A DNA stretch of 64,000 bases, taken from NCBI GenBank assembly GCA_003221695.1, contig QHSX01000046.1:1-64000 (forward strand), written 5' to 3'. The notes under the pieces were generated by a model. The model made no database searches. It saw only the letters and a list, made by a program, of their open reading frames with translations, and was not told the DNA's origin. Below, one piece after another: positions 14,792 through 57,504 of this stretch. Positions within the stretch are counted from its first letter, which is position 1. Each line of letters begins with the position of its first letter. The stretch is from Candidatus Rokuibacteriota bacterium. Lineage in GTDB: Bacteria; Methylomirabilota; Methylomirabilia; Rokubacteriales; CSP1-6. Position numbers and translations under genes: made by a program.

Positions 14792-15397
14792 ATGAGGCTC
14801 ACGACTCGGTCGATCGCGTTCGCGGTCGTGGTGTCGCTGCTCGGTGCAGGTCCGCTCGCGACGTTTGCGCGCGCGCAGCAAGCGCAGCCGCCTGCCGAGC
14901 AGCCTACGCCACAGCCCGAGCAGCCTGCGCAGTCCGCCGAGCAGCCCATGCAGGCCTCACCGGAGCCGGGGCCGCAGCCTGCCGAGCAACCCGCCCAGGC
15001 CGCACCGCCACCCGCGCCGCAGCCCACCGCCGAGCCCGCGCAGGCCGCACCGCCACCCGCGCCGCAACCGGCGGTGCAACCCGCTCAAATGCCGGCGCCG
15101 CCCGCCCGAGAGCCGCAGGCCATGCCGGAGCCGGTCATTTTCGAAGAGCCCTCCGAGTCGACGGTGGGGTACGCCCTGGCCGCCACCATCATGAATTTCG
15201 CCTTCGTCCCGGGCAAGGCGGTGACGTGCGTCCTGGGCATGGCCGTCGGCGGCGGGTTGCTGCTCGTCACGCTGGGTGCCGCCTACAAGGGCTCCATGGC
15301 ATTCGCCAAGGAAGGGTGCGGGGGCAAGTGGGTCCTGACGGCCAAGGATCTCAGAGGGACCGACTACATCCTCGGCGTCGGCGAGCGCCGCGAGTAG
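14792..15397 (+). CDS. exported Pro/Ala/Gln-rich protein with C-terminal membrane domain (201 aa)
   Basis: A signal peptide (MRLTTRSIAFAVVVSLLGAG, cut near FARA) leads into about 90 residues of low complexity. These include repeats of AQAAPPPAPQP encoded by near-identical DNA units. The C-terminal 80 residues are conserved in character: two hydrophobic helices (YALAATIMNFAFVPGKAVTC and LGMAVGGGLLLVTLGAAYKG) and a Cys-containing end, GCGGKWVLTAKDLRG. I have seen this C-terminal pattern in hypothetical proteins of delta-proteobacteria-like genomes. The Pro-rich part may span the periplasm. Function unknown. Confidence 0.7.
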   Translation: MRLTTRSIAFAVVVSLLGAGPLATFARAQQAQPPAEQPTPQPEQPAQSAEQPMQASPEPGPQPAEQPAQAAPPPAPQPTAEPAQAAPPPAPQPAVQPAQMPAPPAREPQAMPEPVIFEEPSESTVGYALAATIMNFAFVPGKAVTCVLGMAVGGGLLLVTLGAAYKGSMAFAKEGCGGKWVLTAKDLRGTDYILGVGERRE

Positions 15398-15717: not shown

Positions 15718-16098
15718 TCAGCGCGCGCGGCTGAGCCCGCGCACGTAGGCGACCAGCTCACGGATCTCTTCCTCCGACAGGGCGGCGCCGAAGGCGGGCA
15801 TCCCCGGCCGTCCGAAGGGCGCGCCGCCGTTCTTGATGATGTCGACGAGGTACTGGTCGGAGCGCTGATCGAGGCGAGCGGCGTCGGCGAGATTGCCGGG
15901 ACGGATCAGGAAGAGCGAGGCGCGCCAGGAACCGCGCCCGTCCACGCCGTGGCACGTGACGCAGAGCGCGTAGAAGAGCCGCTCGCCGCGCGAGGCGCCG
16001 CGGGGTGGCCGCGGCGTGTCGAGGAGCGCCGCGAGGCCCGCGGCGAAGACGCCGATCGCCGCGATCGCGAGGACGAGGACGATCAGCGGGCGGCGCAT
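15718..16098 (-). CDS. membrane-anchored mono-haem cytochrome c (126 aa)
   Basis: The ATG at 16098 gives MRRPLIVLVLAIAAIGVFAA, one N-terminal helix, followed by the haem motif CVTCH in LFYALCVTCHGVDGRGSW. GAPFGRPGMPAFGAALSEEE carries the expected distal Met. It is a class I cytochrome c of the CccA/cytochrome-c-oxidase-associated kind, periplasmic and tethered. It converges with the CusF-like gene, 1 nt apart. The electron partner is not in this neighbourhood. Confidence 0.85.
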   Translation of the reverse strand: MRRPLIVLVLAIAAIGVFAAGLAALLDTPRPPRGASRGERLFYALCVTCHGVDGRGSWRASLFLIRPGNLADAARLDQRSDQYLVDIIKNGGAPFGRPGMPAFGAALSEEEIRELVAYVRGLSRAR

Positions 16099-16169
16099 GG
16101 TCCCCGAGGATAGCACCCGGGCTCGCCGCGTCCGACGCACACGCCCTCGGGGTTTGCCCGAAAAGCCAC

Positions 16170-16199
16170 TTGACAAGAGCGGCCCCCGAAGCATAAAGA
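16170..16199 (+). promoter_or_regulatory. candidate sigma-70-type promoter for the first ABC operon
   Basis: A perfect TTGACA at 16170-16175 is followed after 17-18 nt by ATAAAG/TAAAGA. The binding-protein gene starts 70 bp downstream with a strong TAAGGAGG ribosome site at 16252-16259. Confidence 0.55.
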
Positions 16200-16267
16200 A
16201 GCTAATTCTTCAGCGTGGTTGGCGTTCCACTCGACCGGTCTTGAGGACAGCCTAAGGAGGCTCGGCG

Positions 16268-17602
16268 ATGAGCGATCCCCGATCCGCCCAAACCGCCCCC
16301 GCAACCTTCAACCGCCGGAAATTCCTGACGGTCACCGGGGCGGGGGTCGCGGGTGGCTCCCTTGTGGCCATGCTCGACGCCCGCCAGGCGCCAGCGCAGA
16401 TCAAAGGGACGACCCTGCGCATCTTACAGTGGAGCCATTTCATTCCCGCGTACGACGCCTGGTTCGACAAGTTCGCGAAAGAGTGGGGAGACCAGAACGG
16501 CGTCAAAGTGCGGGTCGACCACATCCCCCACCTCGAGCTGCCGGCGCGCATGGCCGCGGAGTTCGCCGCAGGCGCGGGCCACGACATCATCCACAACGGC
16601 TCGTCGATCCTGACGCGGCTCTACTACAAGAGCCTCCTGGACATCTCGGACATCTACGGCCAGATCGGAAAGAAATACGGCGGCTGGATCCCGGCGGCCA
16701 GGTCCTTGGTCGAGGTCGAGGGGCGGCAGTACGGCTTGCCGATCTACTACATTCTCCTCCCGATGCTCTGGCGCAAAGATCTGTTCGAACAGGCCGGCCT
16801 TCAGCCGCCTGACACCTGGGAGCTGGCCCGGCTGGCGGCGCGGACGCTCAAGCCCAAGGGCCATCCGACGGGCATCCAGTTCTCCCAGTGCGCCGACGCC
16901 AACCTGAACTGGCGGTCGCTCCTGTTCAGCTTCGGCGGCGCGGAAGCGGATCCATCCGGGGAGACCATCCTGGTCGACTCCAAGGAGACGCGGGAGGCGC
17001 TGCGTTTCGCCAAGGCGATCTTCGACGAGGGCATGACGCCGGAGGTCTTCTCCTGGGACGACGCTTCCGACAATCGCTTCCTCGCCTCGGGCGTGGGGTG
17101 CTGGATCCACGACGCGATCTCGGCCTACCGCACGACGGAGGACACCAACCCGCCCGTCTTCAAGAACACCTTCATCGCGATGGAGCCGGCGGGGCCGGGC
17201 GGCAAGCGCGTCAGCGTCTCGGCGGCGAACGTCTGGATGATCTGGAAGTTCGCGAAGAACCAGCCGGCGGCCAAGGAGTTCCTCGTCCATCTCCTGGACA
17301 ACGATCGCGAGGGCATGGTCCAGAGCCGCGGCTACAACATGCCGTACCTCAACGACGGCTACAAGAAGCCGATGCCGGTCATCGGGACCGACCCGAAGAT
17401 GCAGATCCTCCAGGATTTCCCGAAGATCGTCGCGTTCTACGGCTATCCCGGTCCCTTCACGACCCCGATCCAGGAGGTCGTCAACCTCTTCGTCCTGCCC
17501 GATATGTTCACGCGGGCGGCCCGCGGCCAGGCAATCGAGGACGTGATGAAGTGGGGAGCGGGGGAGTACCACCGGATCTTCGCCAAGCACAAGAGGGCAT
17601 GA
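16268..17602 (+). CDS. ABC transporter substrate-binding protein, CUT1/sugar type, Tat-exported (444 aa)
   Basis: The N-terminus holds a twin-arginine signal (FNRRKFLTVTGAGVAGG). The mature protein follows the cluster D binding-protein pattern: ILQWSHFIPAYDAWFDKFAK, then IIHNGSSIL, GLPIYYILLPMLWRKDLFEQ and FSWDDASDNRFLASG. It would capture a solute, probably a sugar or polyol, in the periplasm and hand it to the two permeases encoded next; the first permease gene overlaps its stop (ATGA). No ATPase gene follows in this operon, so the system must borrow one, most simply the gene at 23082-24173. Confidence 0.9.
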   Translation: MSDPRSAQTAPATFNRRKFLTVTGAGVAGGSLVAMLDARQAPAQIKGTTLRILQWSHFIPAYDAWFDKFAKEWGDQNGVKVRVDHIPHLELPARMAAEFAAGAGHDIIHNGSSILTRLYYKSLLDISDIYGQIGKKYGGWIPAARSLVEVEGRQYGLPIYYILLPMLWRKDLFEQAGLQPPDTWELARLAARTLKPKGHPTGIQFSQCADANLNWRSLLFSFGGAEADPSGETILVDSKETREALRFAKAIFDEGMTPEVFSWDDASDNRFLASGVGCWIHDAISAYRTTEDTNPPVFKNTFIAMEPAGPGGKRVSVSAANVWMIWKFAKNQPAAKEFLVHLLDNDREGMVQSRGYNMPYLNDGYKKPMPVIGTDPKMQILQDFPKIVAFYGYPGPFTTPIQEVVNLFVLPDMFTRAARGQAIEDVMKWGAGEYHRIFAKHKRA

Positions 17603-18585
17603 CCCCAGCTTCGCTGAGCGGCGGCCCGGAGCCAGCGGCCCGGGCCGCCGTCGTTTCTGTGCCCGTGGGGGCGACGCGGCGGGCCTGGTGGCGGACCCAC
17701 AGCGCCCAGCGGTACGTGTTTGGCTACACCCTCTTGGCGCCGGCGGCGCTCTACGTCCTGTTGCTCGTCGGAGCGCCGTTCGTGTTCTCGCTCTGGCTTG
17801 CGGTGAGCGACGCCAACGTGAGCGATCCCGTGGCCAGGTTCATCGGCCTCGAGAACTTCCGGTCCGCCTGGGAGATGGAGACGTTCTGGATCGCCTTCCA
17901 GAACAGCGTGGTGTTCCTGGTCGTGGCGGCGATTTTCAAGAGTGTTCTGGGCACGTCGCTCGCCTTCCTCCTGCTCCAGCAGTTCAAGGGAAAGAAGCTC
18001 ATCCGCGGTCTCGTGGTGATTCCGTTCACACTGCCGATCGCGATCAGTGTGCTCTCCTGGAAGTGGATGTACGACTCGCAGTTCAGCGTGATCAACTGGG
18101 CGTTGAGCCGCGCGGGACTGATCGGCGGGTACGGCTCGCCCGACTGGCCGATCTGGCTCGGCCAGCCGCATCTGGCGCTGGCCGCGTGTATCGCGGTCAA
18201 CGTGTGGCGCACCTTCCCGTTCAGCGCGATCGTGCTCCTCGCGGGCTTCACCGCGGTGCCGCTGGAGGTCCTCGATGCCGCCAAGGTGGACGGCTGCACC
18301 TTCATGCAGCGCTTCCGCCACGTGGTGGTGCCGATGATCTTTCCGATCCTGATGATCGGGTTTCTCTTCGACACGGTCTTCACGCTCTCCGACCTGAGCG
18401 TCGTGTACCTCCTGACCCAGGGCGGCCCCGGTAACGCGAGCAAGATTCTGCCCGTGCTCGCGTACCAGGTCGGCATCCAGGCCGGCAACCTCGGCCGGGG
18501 CGCCGCGATCGCGCTCTTCCTGGTGCCGCTGCTGTTCCCCGCGCTCTTCCTCGTCCTCCGGAACCTGAAGCGGCGGGAATGGTAG
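17599..18585 (+). CDS. ABC sugar permease, MalF/UgpA type (328 aa)
   Basis: The ATG at 17599 overlaps the upstream stop. A cytoplasmic tail of about 40 residues precedes six transmembrane helices (the first is YTLLAPAALYVLLLVGAPFV). The EAA loop that contacts the ATPase reads VPLEVLDAAKVDGCTFMQRF, matching the EAA-x3-G-x9-I-x-LP consensus in position. It forms a heterodimeric channel with the permease at 18776-19654. A small repeat-built ORF is inserted between the two genes. Confidence 0.9.
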   Translation: MTPASLSGGPEPAARAAVVSVPVGATRRAWWRTHSAQRYVFGYTLLAPAALYVLLLVGAPFVFSLWLAVSDANVSDPVARFIGLENFRSAWEMETFWIAFQNSVVFLVVAAIFKSVLGTSLAFLLLQQFKGKKLIRGLVVIPFTLPIAISVLSWKWMYDSQFSVINWALSRAGLIGGYGSPDWPIWLGQPHLALAACIAVNVWRTFPFSAIVLLAGFTAVPLEVLDAAKVDGCTFMQRFRHVVVPMIFPILMIGFLFDTVFTLSDLSVVYLLTQGGPGNASKILPVLAYQVGIQAGNLGRGAAIALFLVPLLFPALFLVLRNLKRREW

Positions 18586-18779
18586 TGCGAGCCGCAGCCG
18601 CGAGGCGAGGCGAGTCTGTGAGCGGGGTCGTGCGAGCCGCAGCCGCGAGGCGAGGCGAGTCTGTGAGCGGGGTCGTGCGAGCCGCAGCCGCGAGGCGAGG
18701 CGAGTCTGTGACCGGGGTCGTGCGAGCCGAGCGGCGGCCGCGGAGGCTCGGCGACGCGCGCCGCGAGGCGAGTCTGTGA
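18579..18779 (+). CDS. 66-aa repeat ORF bridging two permease genes (possible relay ORF)
   Basis: An ATG inside the last codons of the upstream permease opens a frame of 66 codons. Its stop TGA (18777-18779) overlaps the GTG start of the downstream permease (GTGA). The peptide is three copies of VVRAAAARRGESVSG plus a degenerate fourth, so it is simply the translation of the 45-bp repeats. The product need not have a function: translation through it would carry ribosomes from one permease stop to the next start. Whether it is translated is unknown. Confidence 0.3.
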   Translation: MVVRAAAARRGESVSGVVRAAAARRGESVSGVVRAAAARRGESVTGVVRAERRPRRLGDARREASL

Positions 18780-18788
18780 CCGGGGTCG
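18586..18788. repeat. 45-bp tandem repeat, three units plus a longer degenerate fourth
   Basis: Units start at 18586, 18631 and 18676 and are nearly identical; each begins TGCGAGCCGCAGCCGCGAGG. The unit at 18721 is expanded to 68 bp. Each unit ends in GTGAGCGGGGTCG or GTGACCGGGGTCG, which copies the first codons of the downstream permease, so the array looks like a serial duplication of that gene's start region. The 45-bp period keeps a 15-residue reading frame. Confidence 0.9.
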
Positions 18789-19654
18789 TGCAAGCCGTGG
18801 CGCCACCGCGGACCAAGCGCCAGAAGGAGCTCCGGCGTCATCTGCTGGTCTACGCGGGCCTCGCCCCGTTCGTCCTGATCGCCGTCTTCCCCATCTACTG
18901 GATGCTGATCACGGCGTTCAAGCAGGAGCCCGATCTCTACCGGATGGACAACATCCCGTTCTGGTTCAACCTGCCGCCGACGCTCAAGAACTTCGAGATC
19001 CTCTTCTACCAGACGAACTACGGCGCCTGGATCGTCAACACCATGACGATCTCGGCCTGGGTGGCGCTCATCACCCTCCTGACCGCCGTCCCCGCGGGGT
19101 ATGCGCTGGCCCGGCTCAGGCTCCCCGGCGCCGAGAACATCGGCATCACCATCTTCCTCACCTACCTGGTCCCGGCGATCATCCTCTTCCTCCCGCTCTC
19201 CCGCGTGATCGCGACGCTCGGGCTCCAGGACAGCTGGTGGGCGCTGGTCGTCGTCTACCCGACCTTCACCGTCCCCTTCTGCACCTGGCTGATGATGGGC
19301 TTCTTCAAGACGGTGCCGATGGAGATGGAGGAGGCTGCGCGCGTGGACGGCTGTGGCCAGTTGGGCGCGCTCGTGCGCGTGGTGCTGCCGGTGAGCCTGC
19401 CCGGGGTCCTGACCTCGGTGATCTTCGCCTTCACCCTCTCGATGCAGGACTTCCTCTACGGGCTCGCGTTCGTCTCCCCGGGGGACCAGAAGCCCGTGCC
19501 GGTCGGGGTGCCGACAGAGTTGATCCGCGGCGACGTCTTCTTCTGGGGCTCTCTGATGGGAGCGGCGTTGCTGGTCGGCCTGCCGGTCGCGATCCTCTAC
19601 AACTTCTTCCTCGACCGCTTCATCCAGGGGATCACGGGCGGTGTCGTCAAGTAG
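18776..19654 (+). CDS. ABC sugar permease, MalG/UgpE type (292 aa)
   Basis: The product begins with a basic tail and then six helices, the first being YAGLAPFVLIAVFPIYWML. The EAA loop is PMEMEEAARVDGCGQLGALV, close to the family consensus. LITAFKQEPDLYRMDNIPFW is the typical MalG extracytoplasmic entry. It pairs with the permease at 17599-18585. The GTG at 18776 is the only start that both keeps the first helix and meets the stop of the bridging ORF. A hairpin terminator follows the stop. Confidence 0.9.
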   Translation: MTGVVQAVAPPRTKRQKELRRHLLVYAGLAPFVLIAVFPIYWMLITAFKQEPDLYRMDNIPFWFNLPPTLKNFEILFYQTNYGAWIVNTMTISAWVALITLLTAVPAGYALARLRLPGAENIGITIFLTYLVPAIILFLPLSRVIATLGLQDSWWALVVVYPTFTVPFCTWLMMGFFKTVPMEMEEAARVDGCGQLGALVRVVLPVSLPGVLTSVIFAFTLSMQDFLYGLAFVSPGDQKPVPVGVPTELIRGDVFFWGSLMGAALLVGLPVAILYNFFLDRFIQGITGGVVK

Positions 19655-19682
19655 GACAAAGCTGGCGCGACGGGGAGGTTTT

Positions 19683-19706
19683 GGAGGGGGGGTGAAGCCC
19701 CCCTCC
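19683..19706. terminator. GC-rich hairpin between converging genes
   Basis: GGAGGGGGG pairs with CCCCCCTCC around a short loop containing TGAA. It lies 28 bp after the permease stop and 7 bp after the end of the cupin gene read from the other side, so it can serve both transcripts. No T-run is present. Confidence 0.7.
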
Positions 19707-19712
19707 GAGGAA

Positions 19713-20162
19713 TTACTCGGCGTCGGGCCTCTGCACCGGATCCGGCCGGCCGGGATAGCCGACGTGGAGCATCAGGTACTTGACCGTCTTGTCGGTCTTG
19801 TTGGTATGGTTGTGCCACCATCCGCCGTTGTCCATGAACGACTGGCCGCCGGCGTGGTACTGGACGCCCTTGATTCCGACGGGGCCCGCCTCGTAGTCGG
19901 TCGTCAGCACCCCTTCGATGACGTAGATGTACGTCGGGACTCTGAACTGCTGGCGACCGGTCTCACCGCCAGGTTCGAGGCTGACGGTCGCGCCCGTGAT
20001 GAAGAGCGGCGCATTGATGGTCGCGTTAAAGCTCCCGAGCGAGGTCACGAGTCCCTTGACCGTAACCCCCTTCGGAGCCTTTGAGTCCTGGGCATCGGCC
20101 GGCAGGCCCACGAGGCCGACGAGAAGGGCCACGATGAGGGCGAGAGACACTCGAGTGAGCAT
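19713..20162 (-). CDS. secreted cupin-domain protein (149 aa)
   Basis: The signal peptide is MLTRVSLALIVALLVGLVGL, cut after ADA. The mature part is a single small cupin barrel: TGATVSLEPGGETGRQQFRV and YIYVIEGVLTT form motif 1, and AGGQSFMDNGGWWHNHTN forms motif 2 with the metal-ligand His residues. Similar periplasmic cupins are annotated only generally. It reads divergently from the propeller protein gene at 20241, sharing the intergenic region that holds a perfect inverted repeat. Ligand unknown. Confidence 0.8.
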   Translation of the reverse strand: MLTRVSLALIVALLVGLVGLPADAQDSKAPKGVTVKGLVTSLGSFNATINAPLFITGATVSLEPGGETGRQQFRVPTYIYVIEGVLTTDYEAGPVGIKGVQYHAGGQSFMDNGGWWHNHTNKTDKTVKYLMLHVGYPGRPDPVQRPDAE

Positions 20163-20212
20163 GGGTTCACTCCTCGTGAAAGGGTGTGAGCGGCGGCTGA
20201 GTCCTCTAGCGT

Positions 20213-20240
20213 GGCGAAACCTAGCATCCGAGGTTTCGCC
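20213..20240. promoter_or_regulatory. perfect 10-bp inverted repeat abutting a start codon
   Basis: GGCGAAACCT and AGGTTTCGCC are exact complements separated by 8 nt, and the right arm touches the ATG at 20241. It could be a repressor operator for the divergent genes, or an RNA hairpin that hides the translation start. Confidence 0.6.
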
Positions 20241-21299
20241 ATGTCAAGAATGACGTGGGCCGGGCGGACGGTGTGGACGCCCGCGGTTATCGTCGGCATC
20301 CTCTGCCTTTCGGACGGCTCCGCTCCGCCCGCGAGAGCCGGTGAGGTTCACCTCGCGAGCGGGTTCAGGATCGAGGTCGTGGCGACCGGCGTCCCGAGGC
20401 CCGCCCAGCTCGCGTTCACGGCGTCGGGACGCCTCGCCGTCTTGAGCCACGGCTGGCGCGGCGATGCCGCGGCGGAGATCTTCTGGCTCGACCCTCTCGC
20501 CGCGATGCCCATCGACGCCTCTCGGGCCCCCAGGGTCGTGATCCCGTTCGCCGAGGGGCCGCGAAAGACCGTCCTGGGCAGCCTCGCCGTCGATCCGAAG
20601 TCGGGAGACCTCTTCCTCGGAGAGGAGAACGGGAACCGCATCTACCGGCTCACGGGCGTCGGACGCCTGACGTCGATCGCTGTCGGCCTCAACCATCTCG
20701 TCGGCGGCTCGAGCCTCGCGACCGATGGGCAGGGGCGGCTCGTGGTGCTCGACTATGCGAGCTTCGAGAGCCGGCTCCGCTCGGAGACGCCTCCGCCTCC
20801 GTCGTTCGACTGGCTCGCCGGCGAGGATTACACGGGGCCGCTCGTCTTCCGCATCGATCCCGAGGCGGACGTGCCGCTGCCGAGGCACCTGGACATCGTC
20901 GCTCCGATCTTCCCGAAACCCCCGATGCGCCGGGTCGCCGGGGAGCCGTTGCACCGGTTCATCGCGGTCGTGCCGATCGGCACGGGCGAGCTCGCCTTGC
21001 TCAACTCCGTGGGCGAAGTCTTCCTTCTGTCGCCGGAGGGCGACCTCCGGCGTCTCGCGCGGCTCCCCTCGGGGCACTTCCACCGGACCAACATGGCGGC
21101 GGCACCCGACGGCAGCGTGTTCGTGTCGAGCGGGTTCCACATCCGCGAGATGTACCGTGTCTCGCCCACCGGCGTCGTGACGAGCCTCGCCCGCGAGCTG
21201 AGCGACCCCCAGGGGATCGCTGTGGACCAGGCGGGCGCCCTCTACGTCGCGGAGACGGCCCTGCACCGGATCATGCGCATCGTCCCGACCGCCCGCTGA
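20241..21299 (+). CDS. secreted NHL/SMP-30-like beta-propeller protein (352 aa)
   Basis: An N-terminal signal (WTPAVIVGILCLSDGSAPPARA) is followed by propeller-like repeats: SGDLFLGEENGNRIYRLTG, GSVFVSSGFHIREMYRVSP and DQAGALYVAETALHRIMRI. The GxLYVA-x3-x-RI pattern is that of NHL/gluconolactonase-like propellers. The frame is open upstream to a GTG at 20211, but that start would precede the signal peptide with the inverted repeat; the ATG at 20241 gives a normal signal. It lies between the two ABC systems and might act on the same carbohydrate, which is speculative. Confidence 0.75.
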   Translation: MSRMTWAGRTVWTPAVIVGILCLSDGSAPPARAGEVHLASGFRIEVVATGVPRPAQLAFTASGRLAVLSHGWRGDAAAEIFWLDPLAAMPIDASRAPRVVIPFAEGPRKTVLGSLAVDPKSGDLFLGEENGNRIYRLTGVGRLTSIAVGLNHLVGGSSLATDGQGRLVVLDYASFESRLRSETPPPPSFDWLAGEDYTGPLVFRIDPEADVPLPRHLDIVAPIFPKPPMRRVAGEPLHRFIAVVPIGTGELALLNSVGEVFLLSPEGDLRRLARLPSGHFHRTNMAAAPDGSVFVSSGFHIREMYRVSPTGVVTSLARELSDPQGIAVDQAGALYVAETALHRIMRIVPTAR

Positions 21300-56257: not shown

Positions 56258-57504
56258 GGACGGTCCGAGCGGCCCTCACGACGCTCGGGTTCGTCCTCTT
56301 CCCCCTTTCCGCCTTCCTCGTCCTTTCCCCCTTCCTCACCGTTGCCCCCTTCCTCGCCGTTGCCCCCTTCCTTTCCGTTCCCCCCGCTCACGCGTCGGGC
56401 ACGATCCGCGTCGCGATCGTCGAGAGCGCGCGCACCGTCGAGCTGCACGGGGTGTCCATCGTGGTGACCGAGCTCGGCGCCTCGGGCACCGACGCGAGCG
56501 CGTGGCGGGCGGACGTCGTCCGGGCGCTCGCCACCGGCCCGAGCGTCGAGATCGACGGGCGTCGCGCGCGGAGGTTCCGGCTGACGAGCGAGCGCCCGAT
56601 CCAGATGAACGGCCGCGAGTACCCGGCGACGCTCGAGGTCGTGAAGAACGGCGAGGGCCTCGCGGTCGTCAACGAGTTGCCCCTCGAGGACTACCTGGTC
56701 GGCGTCCTGCGCGCCGAGACCAGCGAGCGGTGGCCGCGCGACATGCTGCGCGCCCAGGCGATCGTCGCGCGCACGTACGCCGCGTACCATCGGATGCTCA
56801 ACGCGTCGAAGCCGTACCACATCGTCGCCTCGACGGTCCATCAGGCGTACGTCGGGGTCGTCCCGTCGTCCTCGCCCGTCTGGGACGCCGTCCGTGACAC
56901 GCGGGGCCAGGTGCTCTTCTGGCGAGGGGGTCTCTTCCCGGCGTTCTACCACGCCACGAGTGGCGGATACACCGAGGACCCGCGCACCGTCTTCGCGGCG
57001 CCCAACATGCCCGCGCTCAAGGCGATTCGCGACGAGTTCTCGGCGGGCGCGCCGCACTCCGCCTGGAGCCTCGACCTCCGGCTCGCCGACCTCTCGGAGA
57101 TCCTGCGGCGCCACGGCCTCGACATCGGGTGGGTCAAGGCGGTGGAGGTGACCGAGCGCACGCCGTCGCTCCGCGTCTCGGCACTCACGATTCACGGCAC
57201 GCGCGGGCGGGCGCCCCTGCGCGGCAACGACTTCCGCCGCATGGTCGGCTACGAGATGCTCAAGTCCACGCTCTTCGCCGTCGCCGTGGACGGTGCGAGG
57301 GCGCACTTCGCCGGACGCGGCTACGGTCACGGCGTGGGCATGTCGCAGTGGGGCGCAAAGGCGATGGCCGAGCGTGGCTACAGGGCGGAGGGGATCCTCG
57401 AATTCTACTACCCGGGCGCAACGCTCGGTGTGCTCGACGAGCCGGCGCGCGCCTCCCTCAGACCGCCCTCGGTGGTTCCGCCCGCGCGGCTTGGGCTCCC
57501 GTGA
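56254..57504 (+). CDS. SpoIID/LytB-domain protein, exported (416 aa)
   Basis: SpoIID-type proteins are lytic transglycosylases or their relatives acting on peptidoglycan stripped of stem peptides. The domain is shown by LPLEDYLVGVLRAETSERWP, AQAIVARTYAAYHRML, FPAFYHATSGGYTED and GRGYGHGVGMSQWGAKAMAE. The long signal region contains a repeated PFLAVAPFLSV stretch from an 18-bp DNA repeat. In this non-sporulating context a cell-wall remodelling role is likely but inferred. The start overlaps the DUF2905 gene stop. Confidence 0.88.
   Translation: MRTVRAALTTLGFVLFPLSAFLVLSPFLTVAPFLAVAPFLSVPPAHASGTIRVAIVESARTVELHGVSIVVTELGASGTDASAWRADVVRALATGPSVEIDGRRARRFRLTSERPIQMNGREYPATLEVVKNGEGLAVVNELPLEDYLVGVLRAETSERWPRDMLRAQAIVARTYAAYHRMLNASKPYHIVASTVHQAYVGVVPSSSPVWDAVRDTRGQVLFWRGGLFPAFYHATSGGYTEDPRTVFAAPNMPALKAIRDEFSAGAPHSAWSLDLRLADLSEILRRHGLDIGWVKAVEVTERTPSLRVSALTIHGTRGRAPLRGNDFRRMVGYEMLKSTLFAVAVDGARAHFAGRGYGHGVGMSQWGAKAMAERGYRAEGILEFYYPGATLGVLDEPARASLRPPSVVPPARLGLP

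Follow-up and report, generated by a model that had tools for sequence, protein, structure and literature searches.

The array between two permease genes

The window, the whole 64,000-nt stretch of DNA that we analyzed, comes from a genome of Candidatus Rokubacteria, uncultured bacteria of soil, and carries two genes encoding ABC permeases (both BPD_transp_1) with a tandem repeat array between them; the permease genes, the repeat units, and the ORF described below all lie on the + strand. Permease 1 (17599..18585) ends in a TAG at 18583-18585; its ATG start at 17599 was our choice and overlaps the stop (TGA) of the gene for the solute-binding protein (16268-17602). The first three units of the array are 45 bp each (18586..18630, 18631..18675, and 18676..18720), the first having a 32-bp core, one base more than the usual 31 bp; they are followed by a 68-bp unit with a 55-bp core (18721..18788) and, at the array end, by an 8-bp partial unit, TGCAAGCC (18789..18796). 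Tandem Repeats Finder scored the array at 284 (period 45, 3.5 copies, 96% matches), and the 21-bp unit head, with ≤3 mismatches allowed, occurs three times in the window versus a mean of 0.04 in shuffles. The earlier note had placed three 45-bp units and a longer fourth between two permease genes; we found the same layout, and the genes are closely spaced in relatives, but the fourth unit belongs to a separate 68-bp subtype, found at other places in the genome.

A relay ORF of 64 codons plus a stop (18585..18779) spans the array. It starts at a GTG that shares bases with the permease 1 stop (TAGTG), its frame is unbroken across all units, and the TGA that closes it overlaps the GTG at 18776 (GTGA, 18776-18779). 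This GTGA is the repeat's own end; counted from the coupled GTG, permease 2 spans 18776..19654 and gains 7 residues, while the start that agrees with relatives in alignment is GTG 18797. The relay ORF does not resemble a known protein: it had no NCBIfam match, and all of its Pfam matches fell below the cutoff. Two other repeats occur in the window. At 14928-15084, a repeat with a 45-bp period lies within an ORF rich in Pro, Gln, and Ala whose start resembles a signal peptide, and has no relation to the array; at 56303-56385, an 18-bp tandem repeat codes for part of a signal-peptide-like stretch (SPFLTVAPFLAVAPFLSV).

In relatives, 76 of 80 loci for the permease pair gave a junction, and 74 of these 76 have −4 to +7 nt between the genes, a range biased to small gaps because the gap was measured to the in-frame start nearest the stop. 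The remaining loci were L103 and L123 (without one gene), L090 and L128 (no pair), L061 (mis-paired), and L116 (a 102-nt gap). The same-genus genome G003 has an empty site, TAG-CGCC-ATG, with 4 nt between the permeases. Its ATG aligns with GTG 18797 of the window, where 211 bases separate the permease 1 stop from this homologous start; thus, about 207 bp were added in the window. Together with the wider explanation developed below, we think it quite probable that the array arose by insertion and tandem amplification of a dispersed element. Local duplication of the permease start, the origin implied by the earlier note when it took the repeat to copy that start, was rejected: family members are spread over the whole genome, and the start was ancestrally 21 nt further downstream, at GTG 18797 rather than GTG 18776. 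The dispersed family arrived at this place.

A dispersed family at stop/start junctions

Conserved ends (GTGCGAGCC ... GAGGCGAGYC, with TRTGA often next) enclose a variable, mostly hairpin-forming middle in this element, which is dispersed over many sites as single or tandem units. Blast with the window array gave 62 matches in the source genome (self counted) and matches in 23 of 40 relatives' genomes (own counted). The genome search for the unit that the earlier note proposed thus uncovered a dispersed family: the exact family pattern, GTRCGAGCCG-N6-36-GGCGAGYC, matched 84 times in the source genome, versus once for the reversed pattern used as a control. Same-genus G001 likewise had 84 matches versus 0 reversed, and the remaining two genomes of the genus had 7 and 3.

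Across the phylum, 49 of 95 genomes have at least one pattern match. Of these, 45 are among the 57 members of the taxonomic family; the other 4, each with a single match, are among the 38 remaining genomes. The 57 genomes of the taxonomic family hold 562 matches, compared to 56 for the control, and 12 of them have at least 10. Low counts carry little meaning because the control equals the pattern matches in 3 of the 45 positive genomes (G009, G018, and G080). An assembly artifact is unlikely, since the family recurs on many contigs and reaches at least 10 matches in those 12 family genomes. A literature search for Rokubacteria with tandem repeats returned no match, and no title among the matches listed for Rokubacteria with repeats concerned such elements.

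Allowing mismatches to the pattern, we listed 117 arrays (51 in the source genome and 66 in G001, with L211 entered twice); genes were called by our own codon-usage score, trained on long ORFs of these loci, in place of a standard gene finder. Element and downstream gene run in the same direction in 99 arrays and in opposite directions in 8, the gene being uncalled in 10; for the upstream gene, the corresponding numbers are 86, 13, and 18. Among the 86 arrays with a called upstream stop, that stop lies ≤30 nt before the element in 59. The common site in these arrays is a stop/start junction, often an RTGA overlap, and not a gene interior; the genes on either side belong to unrelated pathways. 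Flank duplication is in modest excess, with 14 flank pairs over the 117 arrays sharing ≥7 bases (shuffles, mean 3.9 and maximum 9). It could be argued that the element is neutral junk, which lands in gaps since insertions into genes are lethal and whose reading phase is inherited from its length; however, the orientation bias of 99 to 8 is unexpected under neutral landing.

We compared empty and filled junctions in relatives at hisB-hisH, glyS, and purN-purH, taking loci from the best 30 matches of 57 genomes at each junction. At hisB-hisH, the 30 genomes comprise 7 with direct 4-nt GTGA/ATGA overlaps, 11 with the element, and 12 with other spacers. Seven of the nine single-unit sites have a 40-nt gap, versus −4 in empty sites, so that 44 bases were added, and all seven carry RTGATYG on both sides of the element; the gaps at the other two are 37 and 50 nt. 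RTGA flanks both sides in most filled sites. The source genome has four units here and its three genus mates have none, with a 4-nt gap. Unit number differs among species (4, 2, 1, and 0). At L248-L250 and L261, 4-nt gaps such as TGTGAGCCTATGA resemble deletion remnants of the element.

The glyS junction was readable in 22 of 30 genomes, the other 8 lacking a recognizable upstream gene; the gene upstream of glyS had no family match. An in-frame start lies at −4 in 10 of the 22, and one to three units are found where the element is present. The earlier note called for a comparison of repeat number among relatives at the locus of the window; at shared junctions elsewhere, copy number differs between species: glyS has two units in the source genome, three in G001, and one in G009. 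At purN-purH, 23 of 30 genomes have a 4-nt overlap, 3 reach the start via one relay, and 4 do not. In the source genome, PurN (L182, G000 C35:40200-43700) runs into the element and acquires a repeat-coded tail past the PurN profile end; the element TGA that ends PurN overlaps the purH start.

Two further kinds of arrangement were seen. On the minus strand of L014 (G000 C98:6800-8737, about 285-321), an element with a 36-base core lies in frame within pdxT and adds about a dozen residues; a four-unit array at the pdxT start adjoins it. In L035, L037, L038, and L183, the hairpin of a longer core apparently contains a 31-base core, as nested insertion might produce.

Reading phase and the proposed relay

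Core length is 1 mod 3 in 127 of 136 units with TRTGA next; therefore, the GTG within the element shares its frame with the TGA of TRTGA. Units are spaced 2 mod 3 in 45 of 63 cases in the source genome and 35 of 40 in G001 (80 of 103 in all); therefore, each TGA overlaps the next start, and a mini-ORF closes and restarts at every unit. A period that is a multiple of three, which the earlier note stressed, holds for the 45-bp units of the window and is the exception in the family. With a core one base longer (32) and a period of 45, the small relays of the window fuse into the single 64-codon ORF: three 45-bp units are read through in one frame, and the 68-bp unit closes it. The earlier note was right that changing the number of 45-bp units leaves this ORF open.

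We defined a relay test at hisB-hisH and glyS junctions whose upstream stop is RTGA and whose gene start lies further down (stops other than RTGA occur at 5 of 30 hisB-hisH and 1 of 22 glyS junctions), and ran a shift test on both sets. The genomes are related, so the relay and phase counts here are not independent, and a binomial value computed for the relay test is too optimistic. At hisB-hisH, the relay reached the gene start at 18 of 18 junctions, compared to 2 and 3 of 18 after insertion of 1 or 2 nt; at glyS, it did so at 8 of 11, compared to 4 of 11 after either insertion. The three glyS junctions without a relay include L280, in which no start was found. Among filled hisB-hisH sites, 10 of 11 have a relay with the stop overlapping the next start by 4 nt; the exception has a TAG stop. 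Strict element sites (a start that overlaps the stop, 1-nt overlaps being allowed too) have a relay in 22 of 28 cases, compared to 14 after a +1 shift and 10 after a +2 shift, and none in 6 of 28; this contrast is weaker because several starts can serve, and shifted controls keep up to half of the relays. A looser count that accepted any start ≤15 nt after the stop (14 of 22 and 17 of 22) contrasted weakly with shifted copies, and we adopted the strict form.

Eight of the 18 hisB-hisH relays have no recognizable element. In these element-free spacers with an RTGA stop, phase is kept in 8 of 8, with start-to-start distances of 8, 11, 17, and 101 nt; four of the 12 element-free, nonoverlapping hisB-hisH junctions have no relay, and their stops are not RTGA. 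The 101-nt distance belongs to L267, in which the frame runs without interruption between the hisB stop and the ATGA of hisH.

Inheritance could account for some of this regularity: core and unit lengths are passed on within subtypes (44 and 68), which is why the counts are not independent, and some sites manage without a relay, both as expected of neutral junk. That the element-free RTGA-stop spacers at hisB-hisH are also in phase speaks against such an account, which, with the orientation bias added, we regard as improbable. Still less probable, in our judgment, is the proposal of the earlier note that copy number acts as a switch or tuner, with gain or loss of units altering permease 2 expression. 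Unit number does differ between species at hisB-hisH and glyS, and passages of PMC2734929 link a variable repeat array upstream of fpg1 in Mycobacterium tuberculosis to fpg1 expression. However, gain or loss of whole units leaves the frame of the window unchanged and, by length, that of 2-mod-3 units as well. Copy number makes no difference in either design, so the idea of a switch lacks support.

We consider it quite probable, from sequence comparison, that these are short, mobile, MIRU-like elements, tolerated at coupling sites by relaying ribosomes. Such an element would insert, in gene direction, at junctions whose stop and start codons overlap or are almost adjacent. At an RTGA site, insertion would leave RTGA on both sides, the left copy serving as the upstream stop and the right copy giving the downstream gene a new start. 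The lengths of core and linker would preserve a mini-ORF that begins at the left RTG, or at the element's GTG, and ends on the TGA of the RTGA that follows. A terminating ribosome could then restart, read the mini-ORF, terminate, and restart at the downstream gene. In the window, the three units with the extra base would fuse these relays into the 64-codon ORF, and the 68-bp unit would end it at GTGA. We therefore agree with the earlier note, as a reading of the sequence, that coupling between the two genes is the relevant function. Use of the relay by ribosomes may be the reason that the element is tolerated, and the element probably moves by itself.

Structure, movers, and known systems

Consensus cores of 31, 37, and 52 bases share one folding plan, in which short outer pairs enclose a variable stem. 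Window unit 4 has the 55-base core, for which the plan is different. Across the 18 distinct 52-base cores, pairing holds in 98% of cells and 6 pairs are changed on both sides; either value was reached by 0 of 500 shuffles, slid controls collapsed, and this covariation is compatible with action as DNA or RNA.

RAYT is the Y1 transposase that moves REP/BIME. Passages of PMC3733652 describe REP/BIME as short dispersed palindromes, which our hairpin elements with compensatory changes resemble. However, the Y1_Tnp profile had no match in the four genus genomes (drafts, two of them element-rich) or in element-rich G015, G016, and G020, compared to matches in 5 of 14 control genomes, and the Rokubacteria element, unlike REP/BIME, carries an ORF phase; we therefore rejected a RAYT mover and hold that the family is very unlikely to be REP/BIME-like. 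A reverse transcriptase was also ruled against, as RVT_1 had 0 matches in the four draft genomes of the genus; it is present in 20 of 57 taxonomic-family genomes, including element-rich G015, G020, G073, and G092. A phage or plasmid carrier was put aside after viral contigs gave 0 matches to one exact 31-base pattern and blastn of 18560-18800 gave no match in plasmids.

A regulatory RNA, attenuator, or terminator between the permeases, to which the strong hairpin of the 52-base core subtype could lend itself, is equally hard to credit: RNA of the window array does not exceed shuffles in stability (z = +1.33), a terminator search found no terminator-like site in the array, an Rfam search of 16000-21000 gave no match up to an E value of 1, and the element lies between genes of unrelated pathways.

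The closest likeness is to MIRU. Passages of PMC12548453 describe these as short, apparently mobile units at start codons, whose unit ORF is coupled to the gene with −4-nt spacing; passages of PMC2734929 give 40 to 100 bp and 41 places in H37Rv, with copy number variable in 12. (In passages of PMC9189399, "miru-like" is a species name only.) The Rokubacteria element is likewise a dispersed short unit, co-oriented with genes at stop/start junctions, with an ORF overlapping the next start; unlike MIRU, it belongs to another phylum and has conserved ends around middles of several lengths. Likened via published descriptions, it is best called MIRU-like by mechanism, as judged from its sequence, rather than a MIRU.

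Among the Rokubacteria copies, one is read in frame within pdxT and another makes up the purN tail. Rickettsia palindromic elements are short mobile or palindromic repeats similarly able to stay in frame inside genes. Enterobacterial RU are described in the same terms in passages of PMC2759123; in contrast to both, the Rokubacteria arrays lie mostly at stop/start junctions, not inside genes. Translational coupling, in passages of PMC6728339, is termination-reinitiation at overlapping stop and start codons, and native hisB-hisH and purN-purH junctions often or mostly have such overlaps; unlike plain coupling, the element puts a repeat-derived relay ORF between two genes.

Whether the family is an independent class of mobile element, with variable middles and conserved ends, that targets coupling sites as a ribosome relay, MIRU being a convergent instance and the mover in the genus neither Y1 nor a reverse transcriptase of the searched family, seems to us evenly balanced. 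The two usual movers gave no match in the four draft genomes of the genus. The relays are ready-made reporter constructs. Outside mycobacteria, insertions of this element appear to preserve the coupling of stop and start, and relatives offer empty sites next to filled ones; since the phase rule at hisB-hisH also holds in the eight element-free RTGA-stop spacers, it offers a comparative test of selection on coupling itself.
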